DNA of 32,513 nt, taken from Candidatus Aegiribacteria sp. GTDB taxonomy: Bacteria; Fermentibacterota; Fermentibacteria; Fermentibacterales; JCC-6. Made by a program: the position numbers and the translations under genes. Under the pieces are notes generated by a model. It was not told where the DNA came from. It did no database searches and saw only the letters and a list, made by a program, of their open reading frames with translations. Location: assembly GCA_030613065.1 (NCBI GenBank), contig JAUWMQ010000017.1:1-32513 (forward strand), given 5' to 3'. This document shows positions 8,095 through 14,809 of this stretch, piece by piece. The stretch's first letter is position 1; each line of letters starts with the position of its first letter.

Positions 8095-10155
8095 ATAGCT
8101 GCAAAGCACCGTGAAACCGGTCGGCGCCGGATTCCCTTATTCATCCTGTTTCTGCTGCTGCTCGCGGGGTCGGCAACGGCTTACGTAGGACCGGGCGCCG
8201 GTTTTGGAATAGTTACATCTTTCCTTGTGTTTCTGAACGCCATTTTTGTTTCTCTACTCTCTGCACTCATCTGGCCTGTAACAATCGCAATTAAGCTGCT
8301 CAGGAGAAGAAGAAGAGAGTATGCAAGAACTGCGAAACGAGTTGTAATTCTAGGGCTTGATGGTTTTTCGCCGGATATTGCGGAGAAAATGATGGCCGAT
8401 GGAACTATGCCCAACCTTGAGAAGCTTTATAACGAAGGCACTTTTTCCAGACTGGGGACGACCTGCCCCGGTATCTCACCGGTTGCCTGGTCTTCATTCC
8501 AGACAGGTGTCAATCCAGGGAAACATGGTATCTTCGATTTTCTGACACCTGACAGAAAGAGGTATCTCGCAAAACTTTCATCGGTGCATACCGGAACGGC
8601 TCCGTCAATAGTCGGTCTGGGACCCATCAGAAGAACTGTGATGAAACCTTTCGTGAAACTTCTTCGAAAAGGTATACCGTTCTGGAGCCTTCTAAAACGC
8701 TACGGTATCAGGTCCACTGTCATCAGGGTTCCTATCACATACCCCCCAGAACCACTTGATGGTCATCTTCTCAGCGGAATGTGCGTTCCAGACCTTCGGG
8801 GAACCCAGGGCAGTTATACTATATTTACGGAAGATGAACCGGGAGAATCTTTTACAGGTGGTCTCCATCGAAAGCTTCATAAACTTGATAAGGAGAGGTG
8901 GACCGCTGAATTACCCGGACCCGAAAATATTGATGGAGAATATTCGACTGTAACTCTTGAGCTTGATACTTCAGGAGAGGTAGCCCTCCTGACGACCGAT
9001 AGAGGACATCTGAAATTGAAGAAGGGTGTGCTTTCAGACTGGCTTGAACTGCTCTTCCGTTCAGGCCGCAGCAAGGTCAGGGGCATATCTAAATTCTGCC
9101 TGACAGAGGATTGTGAGAAAAAACCGGTTCTATACTGCACTGCCCTTCATGTAGATCCCTTCTTCCCTTCTGTTCCCATTTCTCACCCCGTTCATTATTC
9201 AAGATATCTTGCCGGTCTTTACGGACCATACGCAACACTCGGGCTTGCTGAGGATACATGGGCTTTGAGCAACGGGGCAGTTTCCGAAAAAACATTTCTT
9301 GAGCAGGCATGGTCCATTTTCGATGAGAGAAAGAAGATGTTCTTCGATGCCCTGAAACACACCAGTGACGGTCTGATAGTGTGTGTATTTGATACATCAG
9401 ACAGAATACAGCACATGTTCTGGGGCGACGGTATTCCGAAAGGTTCACCTGTTCATGAAATGTACAGCAGGATGGATTCCCTCATCGGGGAAACAGCCGG
9501 AATGCTCGGCAGAAAGGACATGCTGATAGTAATGTCAGATCACGGCTTTACGTCCTTTCATACGTGTATCGATTTCAATAGATGGCTTCTTGAGAACGGC
9601 TACCTTTTTCTTGAAAAAGATGTTGAGACGGTCGACACATCATTCAAGGGTGTTGACTGGTCCAGGACGAAAGCGTGGTCAATGGGGCTCGCCGGTATAA
9701 TGCTGAACCTCAGAGGCCGTGAGGATAAAGGCATAGTAGAGCCGGGAAGCGAGGCTTCAGAACTTCTTAATGAGATATCGGAAAAGCTGCTGAAGCTGGA
9801 AAACGGTAAAGGTGAAAGGGTCATCAGCGCCGTTTACTCATCGGAGAGGGTTTACAGCGGGCCTTACGTATCCAGAGGACCGGACCTTGTGATAGGAACG
9901 GAATCAGGTTACAGATCCGGCTGGAGCTGCGTTACAGGGGGTATCGGAAAGGAAGTGATCTATCCTAACGATAGACATTGGAATGGAGATCACTGTCACG
10001 ATCACAAGCTTGTTCCCGGCACATTAGCTTCAAATGTAAAACTGAATTCCGAAAATGCTACGATCCTGGATATCGCACCAACTGTTTTGCGGGCTCTTGG
10101 TGCTGCTGCTCCAGCATATATGGAAGGTAAATCCCTGATTCAGGGAAGGGACTGA
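8095..10155 (+). CDS. Membrane-linked alkaline-phosphatase-superfamily phosphodiesterase (type I NPP-like), probable ATA start
   Basis: About 686 aa if started at ATA 8095, or 642 aa from GTG 8227. The longer version is preferred. It gives an arginine-rich N-terminus, a hydrophobic stretch ending GSATA, then AYVGPGAGFG and a second membrane segment before an arginine-rich strip; a GTG 8227 start would cut into that second segment. The catalytic domain carries alkaline-phosphatase-superfamily metal motifs: LGLDGFSPD, the nucleophile region SPVAWSSFQTG, FDTSDRIQHMFW, VMSDHGF, and a late GDHCHDH. Such enzymes cleave phosphodiesters or pyrophosphates, or transfer phospho-groups between lipids and glycans; the substrate is unknown. 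The arginines after the second segment suggest by the positive-inside rule that this part faces the cytoplasm, but this is uncertain. It heads a tight operon (3 bases to the next gene). Confidence 0.85.
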   Translation: MAAKHRETGRRRIPLFILFLLLLAGSATAYVGPGAGFGIVTSFLVFLNAIFVSLLSALIWPVTIAIKLLRRRRREYARTAKRVVILGLDGFSPDIAEKMMADGTMPNLEKLYNEGTFSRLGTTCPGISPVAWSSFQTGVNPGKHGIFDFLTPDRKRYLAKLSSVHTGTAPSIVGLGPIRRTVMKPFVKLLRKGIPFWSLLKRYGIRSTVIRVPITYPPEPLDGHLLSGMCVPDLRGTQGSYTIFTEDEPGESFTGGLHRKLHKLDKERWTAELPGPENIDGEYSTVTLELDTSGEVALLTTDRGHLKLKKGVLSDWLELLFRSGRSKVRGISKFCLTEDCEKKPVLYCTALHVDPFFPSVPISHPVHYSRYLAGLYGPYATLGLAEDTWALSNGAVSEKTFLEQAWSIFDERKKMFFDALKHTSDGLIVCVFDTSDRIQHMFWGDGIPKGSPVHEMYSRMDSLIGETAGMLGRKDMLIVMSDHGFTSFHTCIDFNRWLLENGYLFLEKDVETVDTSFKGVDWSRTKAWSMGLAGIMLNLRGREDKGIVEPGSEASELLNEISEKLLKLENGKGERVISAVYSSERVYSGPYVSRGPDLVIGTESGYRSGWSCVTGGIGKEVIYPNDRHWNGDHCHDHKLVPGTLASNVKLNSENATILDIAPTVLRALGAAAPAYMEGKSLIQGRD

Positions 10156-10158
10156 AAA

Positions 10159-12120
10159 ATGAAAAGAAGGGAATTCCTCAAACTTGCGGCTCTGTCGCCT
10201 GCAGCACTCCTTGGCAGCAGCTGCATGCGAACATCCCCGGTCAGACGTGTCATTGTACTTGGAATAGACGGAATGGACCCCTTCCTTCTGAGAAGTTTCA
10301 TCAATGAAGGAGTAATGCCCAATGCAGCTAGGATGATGGGGTCAGGCAACTTGAATCGTCTTGGAACCAGCAACCCTCCTCAGAGCCCTGTTGCATGGTC
10401 CAATTTTATAACGGGCTATGGTCCTGAAGTGCACGGGATATTCGATTTCATTCACAGGGACCCCTCCAGCAGGGTGCCCTATCTTTCAACATCAAGGGTC
10501 ATCGGTCCCGACAGAATCATCAGCATCAGCGACTGGCGTCTCCCACTCTCAGGCGCAAAAGTGGAACTTCTGAGAAAGGGAGAGCCTTTCTGGAACAGCC
10601 TGACGGATGAGGGAATACCTGTAACCCTGGTTAAACTCCCGGTTGATTTTCCTCCTGACAGTGGAAAGGCCAGAATACTGTCAGGACTTGGAACGCCCGA
10701 CATGCGGGGTAGCCAGGGAAGTTTTACGTTCTTTACAGACGATGCCAGATCGATAACTGATTCAACCTCAGGAGGAATTGTCGTTCCGGTACGTGACTAC
10801 GGTGACAACTGCTATGTATGCACGATAAAGGGTCCCGAGAACTCCATGCGAGCCGGTAACCCTGTAATGGAAGTGGAAACAAAGGTCTGGGTTGACCGTG
10901 ATGCCGATGCCCTGAGAATAGATATTCAGGGCGAACGCATTGTCCTGGCTGCCGGCGAGTGGAGCCGCTGGGTAAGAATGAGATTCGATGCCATTCCACA
11001 CATTTCCAGCGTATCTGCCATCGGAAGGTTCTTTGTAAAAGAGATCACACCCAGGCTTAAGCTATACCTCACACCGCTTAATATCGACCCGCTGAATCCT
11101 GCTCTTCCAATTTCGGAACCATCAACTTTCAGCAGTGACCTTGCAAGAGACCTTGGCCCCTTCTATACACAGGGCTTTCCTGAGGATACAAAGGCTCTTT
11201 CAAGGGGTATCCTTTCAGACGAGGAATACCTGCAGCAGGCGTGGATAGTCCTTCAGGAACGGCTGGATCTTTTCCATCATGAACTGAGCCGATTCAGGGA
11301 AGGTATGCTTTTTTTCTATTTCAGCTCTCTGGATCTGAACATTCACATGTTCTACAGAGTTCTTGATCCAAATTCCCCTCTCCATGCGAGCACAAGCCCA
11401 CGGTTCAAAGGTGCAGTCCGAGAACTTTACAGGCAGATCGACAATGTTATAGGTGATGCCCTTTCAGCAAGGGACGAGAACACTGAAGTGATAGTAATCT
11501 CCGATCACGGATTCGCACCATTCAACAGGGCCTTCAACCTTAATACATGGCTTGCTGAAGAGGGTTACGCTAACATTACATCTCCCCACGCACGAAACCA
11601 GGATATGTTCGCAGCGATCGACTGGGCTTCTACTTCAGCATACGGGCTCGGACTGAACTGCCTGTACATTAACAGAGAAGACCGGGAGGAGAACGGAGCT
11701 GTCCCCCCCGAACAGGTTCCCGACCTTCTTCTCAGGTTGAAGCAGGATCTGGAAGCCGTTACGGATCCCTCCACCGGAAGGCATGTTATAGCCAATGCTT
11801 ATATTACTTCAGATTTCTATCCTGGTCCCCTTCCCTCTTTTGCACCGGACATGATAATCGGTTACGCGAGGGGCTACAGATCTTCATGGGAGACCACACT
11901 TGGAAGCTATCCCGATGAGGTAATAACGGATAACCTTGATCCATGGAGCGGAACTCACTGCATAGACCCCTGCGCTGTTCCAGGTATTCTTCCCTCCACA
12001 CGACGTCCGGTGCTGCCTGACCCGAATCTCATGGATATGGGGAAAAGTATTGCCTCTTTGTTCAATATACCCGTTCTACCTGCAGGAGGCAGAAACATCT
12101 TCAATACGAGCGATTCTTAG
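10159..12120 (+). CDS. Exported alkaline-phosphatase-superfamily phosphodiesterase (type I NPP-like) with Tat-like signal
   Basis: 653 aa. The N-terminus MKRREFLKLAALSPAALL matches a twin-arginine signal (RRxFLK), and Cys22 in GSSC could be lipidated although the lipobox is imperfect. The enzyme domain parallels the preceding gene: LGIDGMDPF, SPVAWSNFITG, SSLDLNIHMFY, VISDHGF, and GTHCIDP near the end. It is therefore a diverged paralogue placed outside the inner membrane. In the late metal-binding segment the first copy has HCHDH and this one HCIDP, a change that could alter metal binding or specificity. Spacing to the upstream gene is 3 bases and its stop abuts the next ATG, so co-expression is very likely. 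Substrate unknown; phosphoglycerol-, phosphoethanolamine- or nucleotide-type phosphodiesters are possible. Confidence 0.88.
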   Translation: MKRREFLKLAALSPAALLGSSCMRTSPVRRVIVLGIDGMDPFLLRSFINEGVMPNAARMMGSGNLNRLGTSNPPQSPVAWSNFITGYGPEVHGIFDFIHRDPSSRVPYLSTSRVIGPDRIISISDWRLPLSGAKVELLRKGEPFWNSLTDEGIPVTLVKLPVDFPPDSGKARILSGLGTPDMRGSQGSFTFFTDDARSITDSTSGGIVVPVRDYGDNCYVCTIKGPENSMRAGNPVMEVETKVWVDRDADALRIDIQGERIVLAAGEWSRWVRMRFDAIPHISSVSAIGRFFVKEITPRLKLYLTPLNIDPLNPALPISEPSTFSSDLARDLGPFYTQGFPEDTKALSRGILSDEEYLQQAWIVLQERLDLFHHELSRFREGMLFFYFSSLDLNIHMFYRVLDPNSPLHASTSPRFKGAVRELYRQIDNVIGDALSARDENTEVIVISDHGFAPFNRAFNLNTWLAEEGYANITSPHARNQDMFAAIDWASTSAYGLGLNCLYINREDREENGAVPPEQVPDLLLRLKQDLEAVTDPSTGRHVIANAYITSDFYPGPLPSFAPDMIIGYARGYRSSWETTLGSYPDEVITDNLDPWSGTHCIDPCAVPGILPSTRRPVLPDPNLMDMGKSIASLFNIPVLPAGGRNIFNTSDS

Positions 12121-12942
12121 ATGATGAACACTGCCGGAAACATTCTGAACGGATTCTTCGACTTTCTGCTGTTATTATTCAGACCGTTTCCCCCTTTCTG
12201 GGGACTTCTGTTCATCTCGCTGCTTTCAGGTCTGGGAATGATCATGGTTTTCAGGCTAGTTTCGAACCAGGAGAAAATTTCCAGACTGAGAAGGAGAATG
12301 GGCGGTGAACTACTTGGAATACTCCTTCATCTGAGCAGCCCGGTAACCGTGATGAAATTCGCCGGTGAACTCATATGGAGCAATACTCTTTACCTTATCT
12401 ATCTTCTGAAGCCCATGCTTGTTATGGCCATACCTTTCATGCTTGTTTGGGGTCAGCTGGACGCGAGGTACGGCTCAACGGAGATGGATGATGATTATCC
12501 TGTAACAGTATCAGTGTTTTTCGAGGATGGCCTTCCCGATAGAGAGAGCCTTGAAATCGGAGTAACCGGGCTGGAACTTATACCACCTGTTGTATTTATC
12601 GATACGCTTGATGAAGTAAGTTTCAGAATACTCCCTTATGTCGATTCACTTCGAAGTTTGGAAATTGATGGAACATCGATTCAGGTGGGAAGAACCGGAA
12701 GATGGAACGGATGCAGGATTTTGAGGGGTTTTAATTCAGATGGTTCACTAATATCAACCTTCTTCCGCCCATGGATAGTCAGAGTAGAACGCTCGGAAGA
12801 CAGCCTGCTTTCCGGATGGTATTCGCTGCCTGATGTCAGATACAGGGTTCTTGGCGGCCACTGGTCCTGGATTGCCGTATTTCTTGTCTTTTCTTCACTA
12901 TCCGCGATTGCAGGAGCAAAAGCATTCAAGGTTAAAATTTAG
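12121..12942 (+). CDS. Membrane protein of unknown function in the phosphodiesterase operon
   Basis: 273 aa. Hydrophobic segments at about residues 24-45, 85-110 and 250-268 surround a basic helix after the first segment (KISRLRRRM) and a ~135-residue soluble beta-rich part (about 115-248). The order of one membrane segment, a charged helical stretch and a following hydrophobic pair loosely resembles Oxa1-superfamily/DUF106-type proteins. I rate that comparison as weak inference. The ATG directly follows the preceding TAG with no gap, which implies translational coupling to the exported phosphodiesterase. A scaffold or lipid-substrate-handling partner of the two phosphodiesterases is a plausible guess only. 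Confidence 0.75.
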   Translation: MMNTAGNILNGFFDFLLLLFRPFPPFWGLLFISLLSGLGMIMVFRLVSNQEKISRLRRRMGGELLGILLHLSSPVTVMKFAGELIWSNTLYLIYLLKPMLVMAIPFMLVWGQLDARYGSTEMDDDYPVTVSVFFEDGLPDRESLEIGVTGLELIPPVVFIDTLDEVSFRILPYVDSLRSLEIDGTSIQVGRTGRWNGCRILRGFNSDGSLISTFFRPWIVRVERSEDSLLSGWYSLPDVRYRVLGGHWSWIAVFLVFSSLSAIAGAKAFKVKI

Positions 12943-12955
12943 AGATTGGAGGATA

Positions 12956-13153
12956 ATGGGGAAGCTTAAGTTGAAATTTGACAGTGCAACCATCGAGAGG
13001 ATAAGAAAAGTCTCCGAAGTGGGCGGATATTCGTCTCCGGAGGAATTTCTGATTCACGTTATAGAGCGTGAGCTTGATTCACTGGATCCCGGTCAGGGAG
13101 AATCTGAGGAAGAGATACGTAAAAAGATGGAAGGCCTTGGCTACATCGAATAG
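12956..13153 (+). CDS. Small ribbon-helix-helix-like protein with GLGYIE tail
   Basis: 65 aa. The first half (KLKLKFDSATIERIRKVSE, then GYSSPEEFLIHVIEREL) has the strand-helix-helix pattern of ribbon-helix-helix DNA-binding or adaptor proteins. The tail EEEIRKKMEGLGYIE is strikingly like the C-terminus of the APS-kinase-like protein on the opposite strand (EKEILKKLQDLGYLEE). The ATG at 12956 follows GGAGG at 12948-12952 by 3 bases; a longer reading from 12833 would overlap the membrane-protein gene by over 100 bases and is rejected. It is the last gene of the operon, 13 bases after the membrane protein. It may regulate the locus or act as a small partner protein. Confidence 0.72.
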   Translation: MGKLKLKFDSATIERIRKVSEVGGYSSPEEFLIHVIERELDSLDPGQGESEEEIRKKMEGLGYIE

Positions 13154-13232: not shown

Positions 13233-13652
13233 TTACTCTTCCAGGTAGCCCAGATCCTGTAACTTCTTGAGTATTTCTTTCTCTTCGTCTGGATGGACAT
13301 CATACTTTGGTGGGGGTACAAGTCCGGCAAGCTCAAGATCCCTCATGAAAATATCCTTAGTGTCAGTACGATGGAGGTCGGATTCTTCTATTATCCTTAC
13401 TTCCAGTTTTTCACCGGGGTTTATGGAAGGGTGTTCCGGACCTGAAGCAATAACGACAACACCGTGGCTGGCAAGCATAGCGCATGCAACTGCCTTTGCT
13501 CTGTCGTTATTTTCCATTCCAAGGTTTTCGATTGCTTCACTGTGAAAAACTTCTACCCTGCCTCCGCGTACTTCTATTTCTCTCCCGAGTTTATCCAGAA
13601 TAGATTCATCGGCCCCCTCTTCGGTCTTGATCCAGATTACAAGTCCCTTCAT
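13233..13652 (-). CDS. APS-kinase-like protein with destroyed P-loop (pseudo-CysC)
   Basis: 139 aa, shorter than a normal APS kinase (~170-200). The fold signature can be followed: GLVIWIKTEEGADES aligns with the GxxIWFTGxxGAGKS start of CysC, then RGGRVEVF, DRAKAVACAMLASHGVVVIA (equivalent to the ARxGVIVIVA strand), and a C-terminal LGYLEE like the family's LxxxGYI end. The Walker A lysine is replaced by Glu16 and the preceding Gly by Asp15, and the DGD motif is replaced by HSE, so ATP-dependent kinase activity is not expected. The gene is coupled to sat by a TGATG overlap. Fungal ATP sulfurylase carries an inactive APS-kinase domain that senses PAPS; by analogy this could be a stand-alone regulatory or structural partner of Sat. 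Identity rests on reading by eye. Confidence 0.7.
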   Translation of the reverse strand: MKGLVIWIKTEEGADESILDKLGREIEVRGGRVEVFHSEAIENLGMENNDRAKAVACAMLASHGVVVIASGPEHPSINPGEKLEVRIIEESDLHRTDTKDIFMRDLELAGLVPPPKYDVHPDEEKEILKKLQDLGYLEE

Positions 13653-14809
13653 CAGTTATCTCCATTTCTGGCAGCTTCCATGAGGATTTCAGCTATTTCA
13701 GGACGTGTGAATTCCGGAGGTGGTAGTATTCCTTCCTTTAACATAGCCCTTACTTTTTTCCCCGAAAGGAATACATGGTGCTGACTGTCGTGAGCGCATG
13801 TCTTTGGAGTAGCCATACCTCCGCATTTACTGCAGAAAAACGCATGTTCGAACTTCAAAGGTACAATTCCCAGTTCATCAGGGTCGAATTTGTCAAAAAT
13901 CATCTGTGCATCGTATGTACCGTAGAAATTTCCGACACCTGCATGATCTCTTCCTACGATAAAATGACTGCATCCGTAGTTTTTCCTGAGAAGTGCATGG
14001 AAGATTGCCTCCTTCGGTCCTGCGTATCTCATAGCAGCCGGAAATACACTCATTGCCACCCTCGTATTCGGGTAGTAATCCTTCAGTATCTCTTCGTAGC
14101 ATCGCATTCTGACTTCAGCTGGGATATCCCCCTGCTGGGTTTCACCTATAAGCGGATGAAGAAGAAGACCATCAACAATTTCCATGGCACACTTCTGAAT
14201 GTACTCGTGGGCACGGTGTATCGGGTTCCTTGTCTGGAATGCAACAGCTGTTTTCCAGCCTCTTGCTCTGAATAGAACCCTTGTTTCCTTGGGGTCTAGG
14301 CGGTAATTCTGAAAGCTCTCGATCTCTCTTCGCCTTATCGATCGAATTTTCCCACCAATGTATTTACCGCTTAATAACTTAAGATACATGACACCAGGAT
14401 GGGAATCATCGATTGTTCCAAGTGTTTTTTCCGCTTCCGCCATGAGATCGGCATTGAAGACATCCTCAATCCGCATATCTCCCCAGATCGTACCTTCAAT
14501 ATCCTTAAGTCCAACGTGGTCGCCCGGGGATACATCGGGGTCTCCGTCTTTCTGAGAGAATACAACCGGCAGCGACCAGACCGGCCCTGCGACAAGATGC
14601 ATGAGATCAATAACCATTTCGTAATCAGCTCTGGACATGAAACCCTCAAGAGGACTCATGGCTCCGTTTCCTATCATTTCCAGGTCGTTCTTTTCGCGCG
14701 GATTAAGAGTCAGGAGTTTGCCGTCTCTTACCTGATTAATGATCTCTTCGGCTTCCGAGCCTTCGTACTGCCGGTCAATTAGTCTTCCACCGTGGGGAGG
14801 TACAAGCAT
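13652..14809 (-). CDS. sat: Sulfate adenylyltransferase (ATP sulfurylase)
   Basis: 385 aa, normal for the single-chain bacterial/archaeal Sat. It catalyses ATP + sulfate to APS + pyrophosphate (or the reverse) in the cytoplasm. Active-site motifs are intact: AFQTRNPIHRAHEY (Gln192, Arg194, Asn195, His198, His201) and IVGRDHAGVG (residues ~284-293). A zinc-site pattern C-x2-C-x8-C-x5-H (Cys326, Cys329, Cys338, His344), as in thermophile and archaeal enzymes, is complete. The closing GKKVRAMLKEG is also typical. Its only operon partner is the kinase-dead APS-kinase-like gene (TGATG overlap). No aprAB, dsr, cysH or working cysC is in the window, so the fate of APS is unknown. Both assimilation and sulfation chemistry remain possible. 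Confidence 0.95.
   Translation of the reverse strand: MLVPPHGGRLIDRQYEGSEAEEIINQVRDGKLLTLNPREKNDLEMIGNGAMSPLEGFMSRADYEMVIDLMHLVAGPVWSLPVVFSQKDGDPDVSPGDHVGLKDIEGTIWGDMRIEDVFNADLMAEAEKTLGTIDDSHPGVMYLKLLSGKYIGGKIRSIRRREIESFQNYRLDPKETRVLFRARGWKTAVAFQTRNPIHRAHEYIQKCAMEIVDGLLLHPLIGETQQGDIPAEVRMRCYEEILKDYYPNTRVAMSVFPAAMRYAGPKEAIFHALLRKNYGCSHFIVGRDHAGVGNFYGTYDAQMIFDKFDPDELGIVPLKFEHAFFCSKCGGMATPKTCAHDSQHHVFLSGKKVRAMLKEGILPPPEFTRPEIAEILMEAARNGDN

Follow-up and report, generated by a model that had tools for sequence, protein, structure and literature searches.

The gene at positions 13233 to 13652 on the minus strand of contig JAUWMQ010000017.1 (assembly GCA_030613065.1) from Candidatus Aegiribacteria sp., a member of the Fermentibacterota, encodes a protein with the fold of adenosine 5'-phosphosulfate (APS) kinase and overlaps sat, the gene for ATP sulfurylase (Sat), in the window analyzed here, a stretch of 32,513 nucleotides. 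With a probability of roughly 0.5, we read the product of this gene as an APS kinase that is catalytically dead and has persisted as a stand-alone, non-enzymatic partner of Sat. A first-pass annotation made from the letters of the window had described a free-standing pseudo-APS-kinase whose gene is coupled to sat. This description was borne out: the kinase is apparently dead, and its gene overlaps sat and is conserved and selected. To our knowledge, dead APS-kinase domains are otherwise known only within fungal ATP sulfurylase, and among the matches listed in a search of the open-licence literature by title and abstract there was no description of a bacterial pseudo-APS-kinase, of a separate-chain dead APS kinase beside sat, or of the cluster described below. 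Because the bacterial protein is a chain of its own and its intact relatives can be identified, an enzyme becomes comparable with its non-enzymatic counterpart in a similar genetic setting. The gene also points to an uncharacterized multi-gene cluster that links sulfate activation, phosphodiesterase-family proteins and a common C-terminal tail. The features on which the argument is based are the following.

13233..13652, minus strand: pseudo-APS-kinase gene, 139 amino acids plus stop; called from its open reading frame (ORF), APS-kinase fold, descent from tail-type APS kinases, presence in 20 of 42 phylum genomes and dN/dS
13599..13628, minus strand: former P-loop region, residues 9-18; P-loop lysine in 0 of 20 family members
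13536..13544, minus strand: His-Ser-Glu, residues 37-39, where Asp-Gly-Asp is expected from alignment with intact kinases
13236..13307, minus strand: C-terminal tail, residues 116-139, ending LGYLEE; predicted helix at 121-133; common to intact tail-type APS kinases and the RHH-like neighbor
13652..14809, minus strand: sat, ATP sulfurylase, 385 amino acids; catalytic motifs present; stop overlaps the pseudokinase start

The pseudokinase, its intact relatives and its conservation

The fold and the order of strands and helices are common to the pseudokinase and APS kinase (CysC; PF01583, TIGR00455, PRK00889), whereas the P-loop lysine, the Asp-Gly-Asp (DGD) motif and the lid are missing from the pseudokinase, and its core comprises about 115 residues compared to about 173. 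Our alignments agree with the residues given in the first-pass annotation, in which Asp15-Glu16 replace Gly-Lys of the P-loop and His-Ser-Glu replaces DGD. Among the 20 family members, the Walker A P-loop lysine is found in none, the first Asp of DGD in one and the second in none, while the lid with its KGLY and FTG motifs is missing from all 20 and each of the ISPY positions is retained in only 0 or 1. At 49 columns that are near-invariant in 38 intact kinases, a reference chosen by P-loop motif, the pseudokinases retain 7 and have other residues at 20, while the remaining 22, the lid among them, are missing. In the reference alignment (A2) 23 of the 30 phylum CysC loci entered after the P-loop-motif filter, and the seven left outside carry other intact P-loops, GLPSSGKS or GLSGCGKS. 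An earlier MAFFT alignment had given 12 of 65 retained columns, a count that differs from 7 of 49 in reference sets and thresholds; it had also set the stretch LVPPPKYDVHPDEE against the kinase lid and was superseded by the alignment with the tail-type kinases. An apparent resemblance between the C-terminus of Sat, LPPPEFTRPEIAEIL, and the pseudokinase stretch LVPPPKYDVHPDEE was dropped, this stretch aligning with the C-terminal helix and tail of the tail-type kinases. Judging from the missing residues and the known mechanism of the family, catalysis by the pseudokinase protein is very unlikely.

The APS-kinase fold is supported by structural matches (VIA rows 1-30 of the 50 listed). In comparisons with hhalign the pseudokinase profile matched 15 tail-type kinases with a probability of 98.7 (E 4.5e-16, 137 columns), compared to 53.5 (E 1.3e-4, 70 columns) when set against ordinary CysC from the Fermentibacterota, and homology to APS kinase is backed by significant matches in both profile and structure. 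PRK00889 matches 12 of the 20 pseudokinases weakly (best E 8.1e-4), and in a Pfam scan APS kinase was matched by none of the 20. A profile search of 385 genomes gave a match in 37, 17 of them outside the phylum, and 15 of these 17 genomes encode an intact, roughly 200-residue APS kinase (L129-L140 and L142-L144) that shares the C-terminal helix and continues into an additional tail of the pattern TLELMGYIP...EEEEKIKxRLKDLGYI. The kinases carry this tail by construction since it brought them into the set. The two other genomes were set aside, one for a kinase without the tail (G232, L141) and one for what appears by eye to be a short-chain dehydrogenase (G059, L145). An intact P-loop was seen in all 15 tail-type kinases before any filtering. 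In two of these intact enzymes, L136 and L144, Asp-Ala-Asp stands for Asp-Gly-Asp.

The tail-type kinases are the nearest relatives found, and share with the pseudokinase the C-terminal helix, the tail, the LGY ending and an overlapping gene neighborhood. However, they are intact, and a phosphodiesterase-family gene lies between their sat and cysC, whereas sat and the pseudokinase gene overlap. In the 42 phylum genomes there was no match that spanned both the kinase and the tail end: kinase-spanning matches end at positions 166-184 of the profile, and the seven matches reaching position 200 are pseudokinase loci. Since the 24 solved sequences that match the tail-type profile do so at positions 1-181 of 200 only, the tail is not part of any solved structure found there. 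By these sequence comparisons, the pseudokinase shares descent with the intact tail-bearing APS kinases.

A profile of 20 homologues located the pseudokinase in 20 of the 42 phylum genomes, with internal stops in none of the 20 matches (three matches in another search extended one codon past their own TAG); matches carrying a name belong to Candidatus Aegiribacteria, Fermentibacteria and Fermentibacteraceae (14 loci). The Nei-Gojobori dN/dS had a median of 0.115 and a maximum of 0.263 (15 of the 20 sequences, giving 105 pairs, of which the 47 with dS < 3 were used and the 58 with saturated dS omitted), values that mark a gene under purifying selection, and neither the relaxed selection nor the disruptions of a pseudogene were found. 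According to the first-pass annotation, homologues with an intact P-loop could have exposed this copy as a merely damaged gene. Such homologues do exist in other bacteria, but the selection and the spread over 20 of 42 genomes contradict damage. The preservation of an apparently dead copy by selection in related species suggests that it has probably taken on a new role as a non-enzymatic partner. By region, conservation was 0.87 for strand 29-36, 0.82 for strand 62-71, 0.81 for the C-helix, 0.78 for helix 51-61 and 0.77 for the tail, which is retained in 19 of the 20 pseudokinases, followed by the former P-loop with 0.61 and residues 72-98 with the lowest value of 0.49.

Association with sat and the proposed partner role

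The Sat of the window is an ordinary ATP sulfurylase (PRK04149, 508 bits), and the catalytic Q.RN..H..H motif occurs in all 42 compared Sat sequences, which were selected by the GRDHAG pattern. The final base of the sat stop codon is also the first base of the ATG of the pseudokinase ORF. Across the family, 19 of 20 loci show such an overlap of the two genes, by 1 or 4 bases, and in the remaining locus sat stop and pseudokinase start are separated by 1 base (the starts in L012 and L021 were read by eye). By a count made by eye, 19 of 20 loci have GGAG in the 14 bases that precede the start, in most cases within the final codons of sat, and this could be the Shine-Dalgarno sequence of the pseudokinase. 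Outside the genera g4 and g5, the pseudokinase was found in 20 of 20 genomes with a stand-alone sat (a contig-edge fragment in G038) and in 0 of 7 without one, several of the latter being incomplete and G013 having a fused form only. In the Sat tree, which took in 18 of the 20 Sats from pseudokinase genomes, a single clade of 18 sequences with support 0.97 unites the pseudokinase-associated Sats of family f3 and genera g1-g3, and a separate clade (14 sequences, support 0.91) contains the Sats of g4 and g5. In addition, G016 has sat and the pseudokinase and no match to the membrane-protein gene of the cluster, while G018 shows the reverse. Based on the co-occurrence pattern, the Sat clade and these two genomes, the pseudokinase appears to have been inherited with a Sat lineage. 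As a separate observation, Sat and APS kinase share one open frame, apparently as a fusion, in two genomes of the genus (G011:C21, 649 amino acids; G013:C30, 631 amino acids).

In the proposed role, the pseudokinase would be made in step with Sat, would bind it and would act as a structural or docking subunit, either in Sat oligomerization or with its tail tethering Sat to a partner also bound by the RHH-like proteins described below, by analogy with the role thought to be played by the fourth domain of yeast ATP sulfurylase; 3'-phosphoadenosine 5'-phosphosulfate (PAPS) would then be made by an unlinked ordinary CysC. Such a structural or docking role with Sat is favored by the conservation pattern, in which the core strands, the C-helix and the tail rank highest (0.77-0.87) and the P-loop lower. 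A separate CysC match was found elsewhere in 17 of the 20 pseudokinase genomes (a P-loop was seen in 16, the other being a contig-edge fragment), and the genome studied here (G000) contains both Sat and an ordinary CysC. With respect to the fate of the activated sulfate, a dissimilatory sulfur role was rejected, AprA being over cut-off in 0 of 42 genomes, whereas the PAPS reductase family (PF01507) was over cut-off in 3 and Sulfotransfer_3, the one sulfotransferase family searched, in 13 of the 42, neither of them in this genome.

Several points weigh against a partnership with Sat. The pseudokinase is missing from all 15 genomes in genera g4 and g5, each of which has the membrane-protein gene and sat (interrupted by stops in G035), and Sat can thus evidently persist without it. 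Among the three pseudokinase genomes in which no CysC was found, G017 is 95% complete. Moreover, Sat need not be the partner that the tail serves, and the former P-loop is not the least conserved part of the protein, residues 72-98 being lower still. Finally, since the reference kinases were picked by their P-loop motif, the invariance of their P-loop columns is partly by construction.

The surrounding gene cluster and the LGY tail

Four further genes of the window, for which the labels AP1, AP2 and RHH (as well as APx, APy and RHH2 elsewhere) were assigned in this analysis, belong to the neighborhood of the pseudokinase.

12956..13153, plus strand: small RHH-like protein, 65 amino acids; same LGY tail; convergent neighbor of the pseudokinase
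12121..12942, plus strand: membrane-protein gene of the ancestral cluster, 273 amino acids; membrane call made from the hydrophobic sequence rather than by a predictor
10159..12120, plus strand: AP2, type I phosphodiesterase family PF01663, by family match
8227..10155, plus strand: AP1, type I phosphodiesterase family PF01663, by family match

All six phosphodiesterase-family proteins scanned matched PF01663, and the RHH name is based on weak matches (best Foldseek E 1.2; PF01402 in 1 of 9 homologues, not that of the window). In ten Fermentibacterota loci (the window and L146-L154) sat and the pseudokinase lie side by side, AP1, AP2 and the membrane-protein gene occur together in 8, and RHH occurs in 9. 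RHH mostly faces the pseudokinase, but the two genes share a direction in the three f3-family loci. Neither APx nor APy was detected in any of the ten stretches. The neighborhoods of 11 of the 15 tail-type kinases were compared by phmmer, some stretches ending at contig edges. There, all 11 loci have the phosphodiesterase-family gene APx next to cysC, 10 have sat in the cluster as well (the exception is L164), a second RHH-like gene (RHH2) precedes sat in 7, and AP1, the RHH-like gene and the membrane-protein gene are found in 6, five of which also have AP2. The cluster in L155, L157, L160, L161 and L162 comprises sat, cysC, four phosphodiesterase-family genes, one or more RHH-like genes and the membrane-protein gene, and that of L156 gave three phosphodiesterase matches. 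The membrane protein L161:9-848, a homologue of the window gene 12121-12942, weakly resembles EMC3/TMCO1 (PF01956, E 0.0033, below cut-off).

The tail EEE..I..KL..LGY occurs on three unrelated proteins of one cluster, the APS kinase and two small RHH-like proteins (window; L155-L163), which may be the larger finding. Outside the phylum it is present on RHH in 6 of 6 and on RHH2 in 7 of 7 loci where these genes were found. In this genome 164 kb were searched, comprising the window and stretches from 10 further contigs, and three ORFs of at least 50 amino acids have the tail ending, namely the pseudokinase, the RHH-like protein and a probably spurious ORF of 56 amino acids, and the tail is predicted to be helical in both window neighbors. 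LGY endings were also seen on phosphodiesterase-family proteins in L165 and on one long ORF each in L156 and L165. As a tentative conjecture that we would sooner doubt than accept, the LGY tail might be a docking code which gathers the APS kinase and the two RHH-like proteins into a sulfate-activation assembly, one not described among the literature matches listed, that would also include Sat, the membrane protein and as many as four phosphodiesterase-family proteins; the Fermentibacterota kinase would then have died as an enzyme and would persist purely as the Sat-paired assembly subunit.

It seems unlikely that the protein is an adaptor in which the kinase body matters little and the LGY tail, together with the RHH-like protein, is delivered to a shared target other than Sat, for example the membrane or phosphodiesterase proteins. 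Although the presence of the tail on CysC, RHH and RHH2 of the clusters and its persistence in all but one of the dead copies would fit such an adaptor, parts of the pseudokinase body are conserved as much as the tail, and G016 retains sat and the pseudokinase, yet the membrane-protein gene has no match in its genome and RHH, AP1 and AP2 have none within the surrounding 19 kb.

Further alternatives and the fungal counterparts

APS kinases are known as dimers, and the pseudokinase might form a mixed dimer with the unlinked active CysC and bring the active kinase to Sat. The frequent CysC match elsewhere in pseudokinase genomes and the preserved core fold are in line with this possibility, which we nevertheless consider improbable, given that this CysC is unlinked, tail-less and of the other type, as reflected in the low hhalign probability given above (53.5 vs 98.7 for the tail type).

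The first-pass annotation read the protein as an allosteric sensor, on the model of filamentous fungi, which would inhibit Sat upon binding PAPS or APS. According to the literature, the APS-kinase domain of Penicillium-type ATP sulfurylase is regulatory rather than catalytic and serves Sat (PMC2275785), and it mediates the regulation by PAPS, while its yeast counterpart is probably structural (PMC4220642); one statement in PMC3779200 is that the fourth domain of yeast Met3 has no defined function. By sequence, the Penicillium domain (1m8p, 1i2d) matches profile positions 2-174 (E 3.1e-47) and is full length. The likeness to this PAPS-sensing domain was not supported in detail: the fungal domain is fused and complete, whereas the pseudokinase is encoded by a separate overlapping gene and lacks the lid and most substrate-site motifs, including KGLY, FTG and nearly all ISPY positions, and its old P-loop is less conserved than the core strands and the tail. 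A sensor function is thus quite improbable.

In size, by contrast with the Penicillium domain, the pseudokinase is nearer to the yeast Met3 fourth domain as judged from the sequences. In yeast ATP sulfurylase (510-511 residues) the Sat match stops at 386-387, leaving about 124, and in the 573-residue Penicillium enzyme it stops at 388, leaving about 185. The pseudokinase, with its core of about 115 residues and no P-loop lysine, is likewise a short P-loop-less APS-kinase-like module, although the Met3 domain is fused to Sat. The Met3 domain is not known to contain a P-loop, and we know of no LGY-like tail on it. Yeast Met3 was not among the best 60 of 96 profile-match rows, and the absence of yeast ATP sulfurylase from the 50 VIA rows listed says nothing either way.

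That the gene is simply decaying on its way out, as its absence from g4 and g5 and its much shorter product compared to the intact relatives might indicate, is hardly credible, since it is contradicted by a dN/dS of about 0.12, the lack of internal stops and the conserved overlap of its start with sat.
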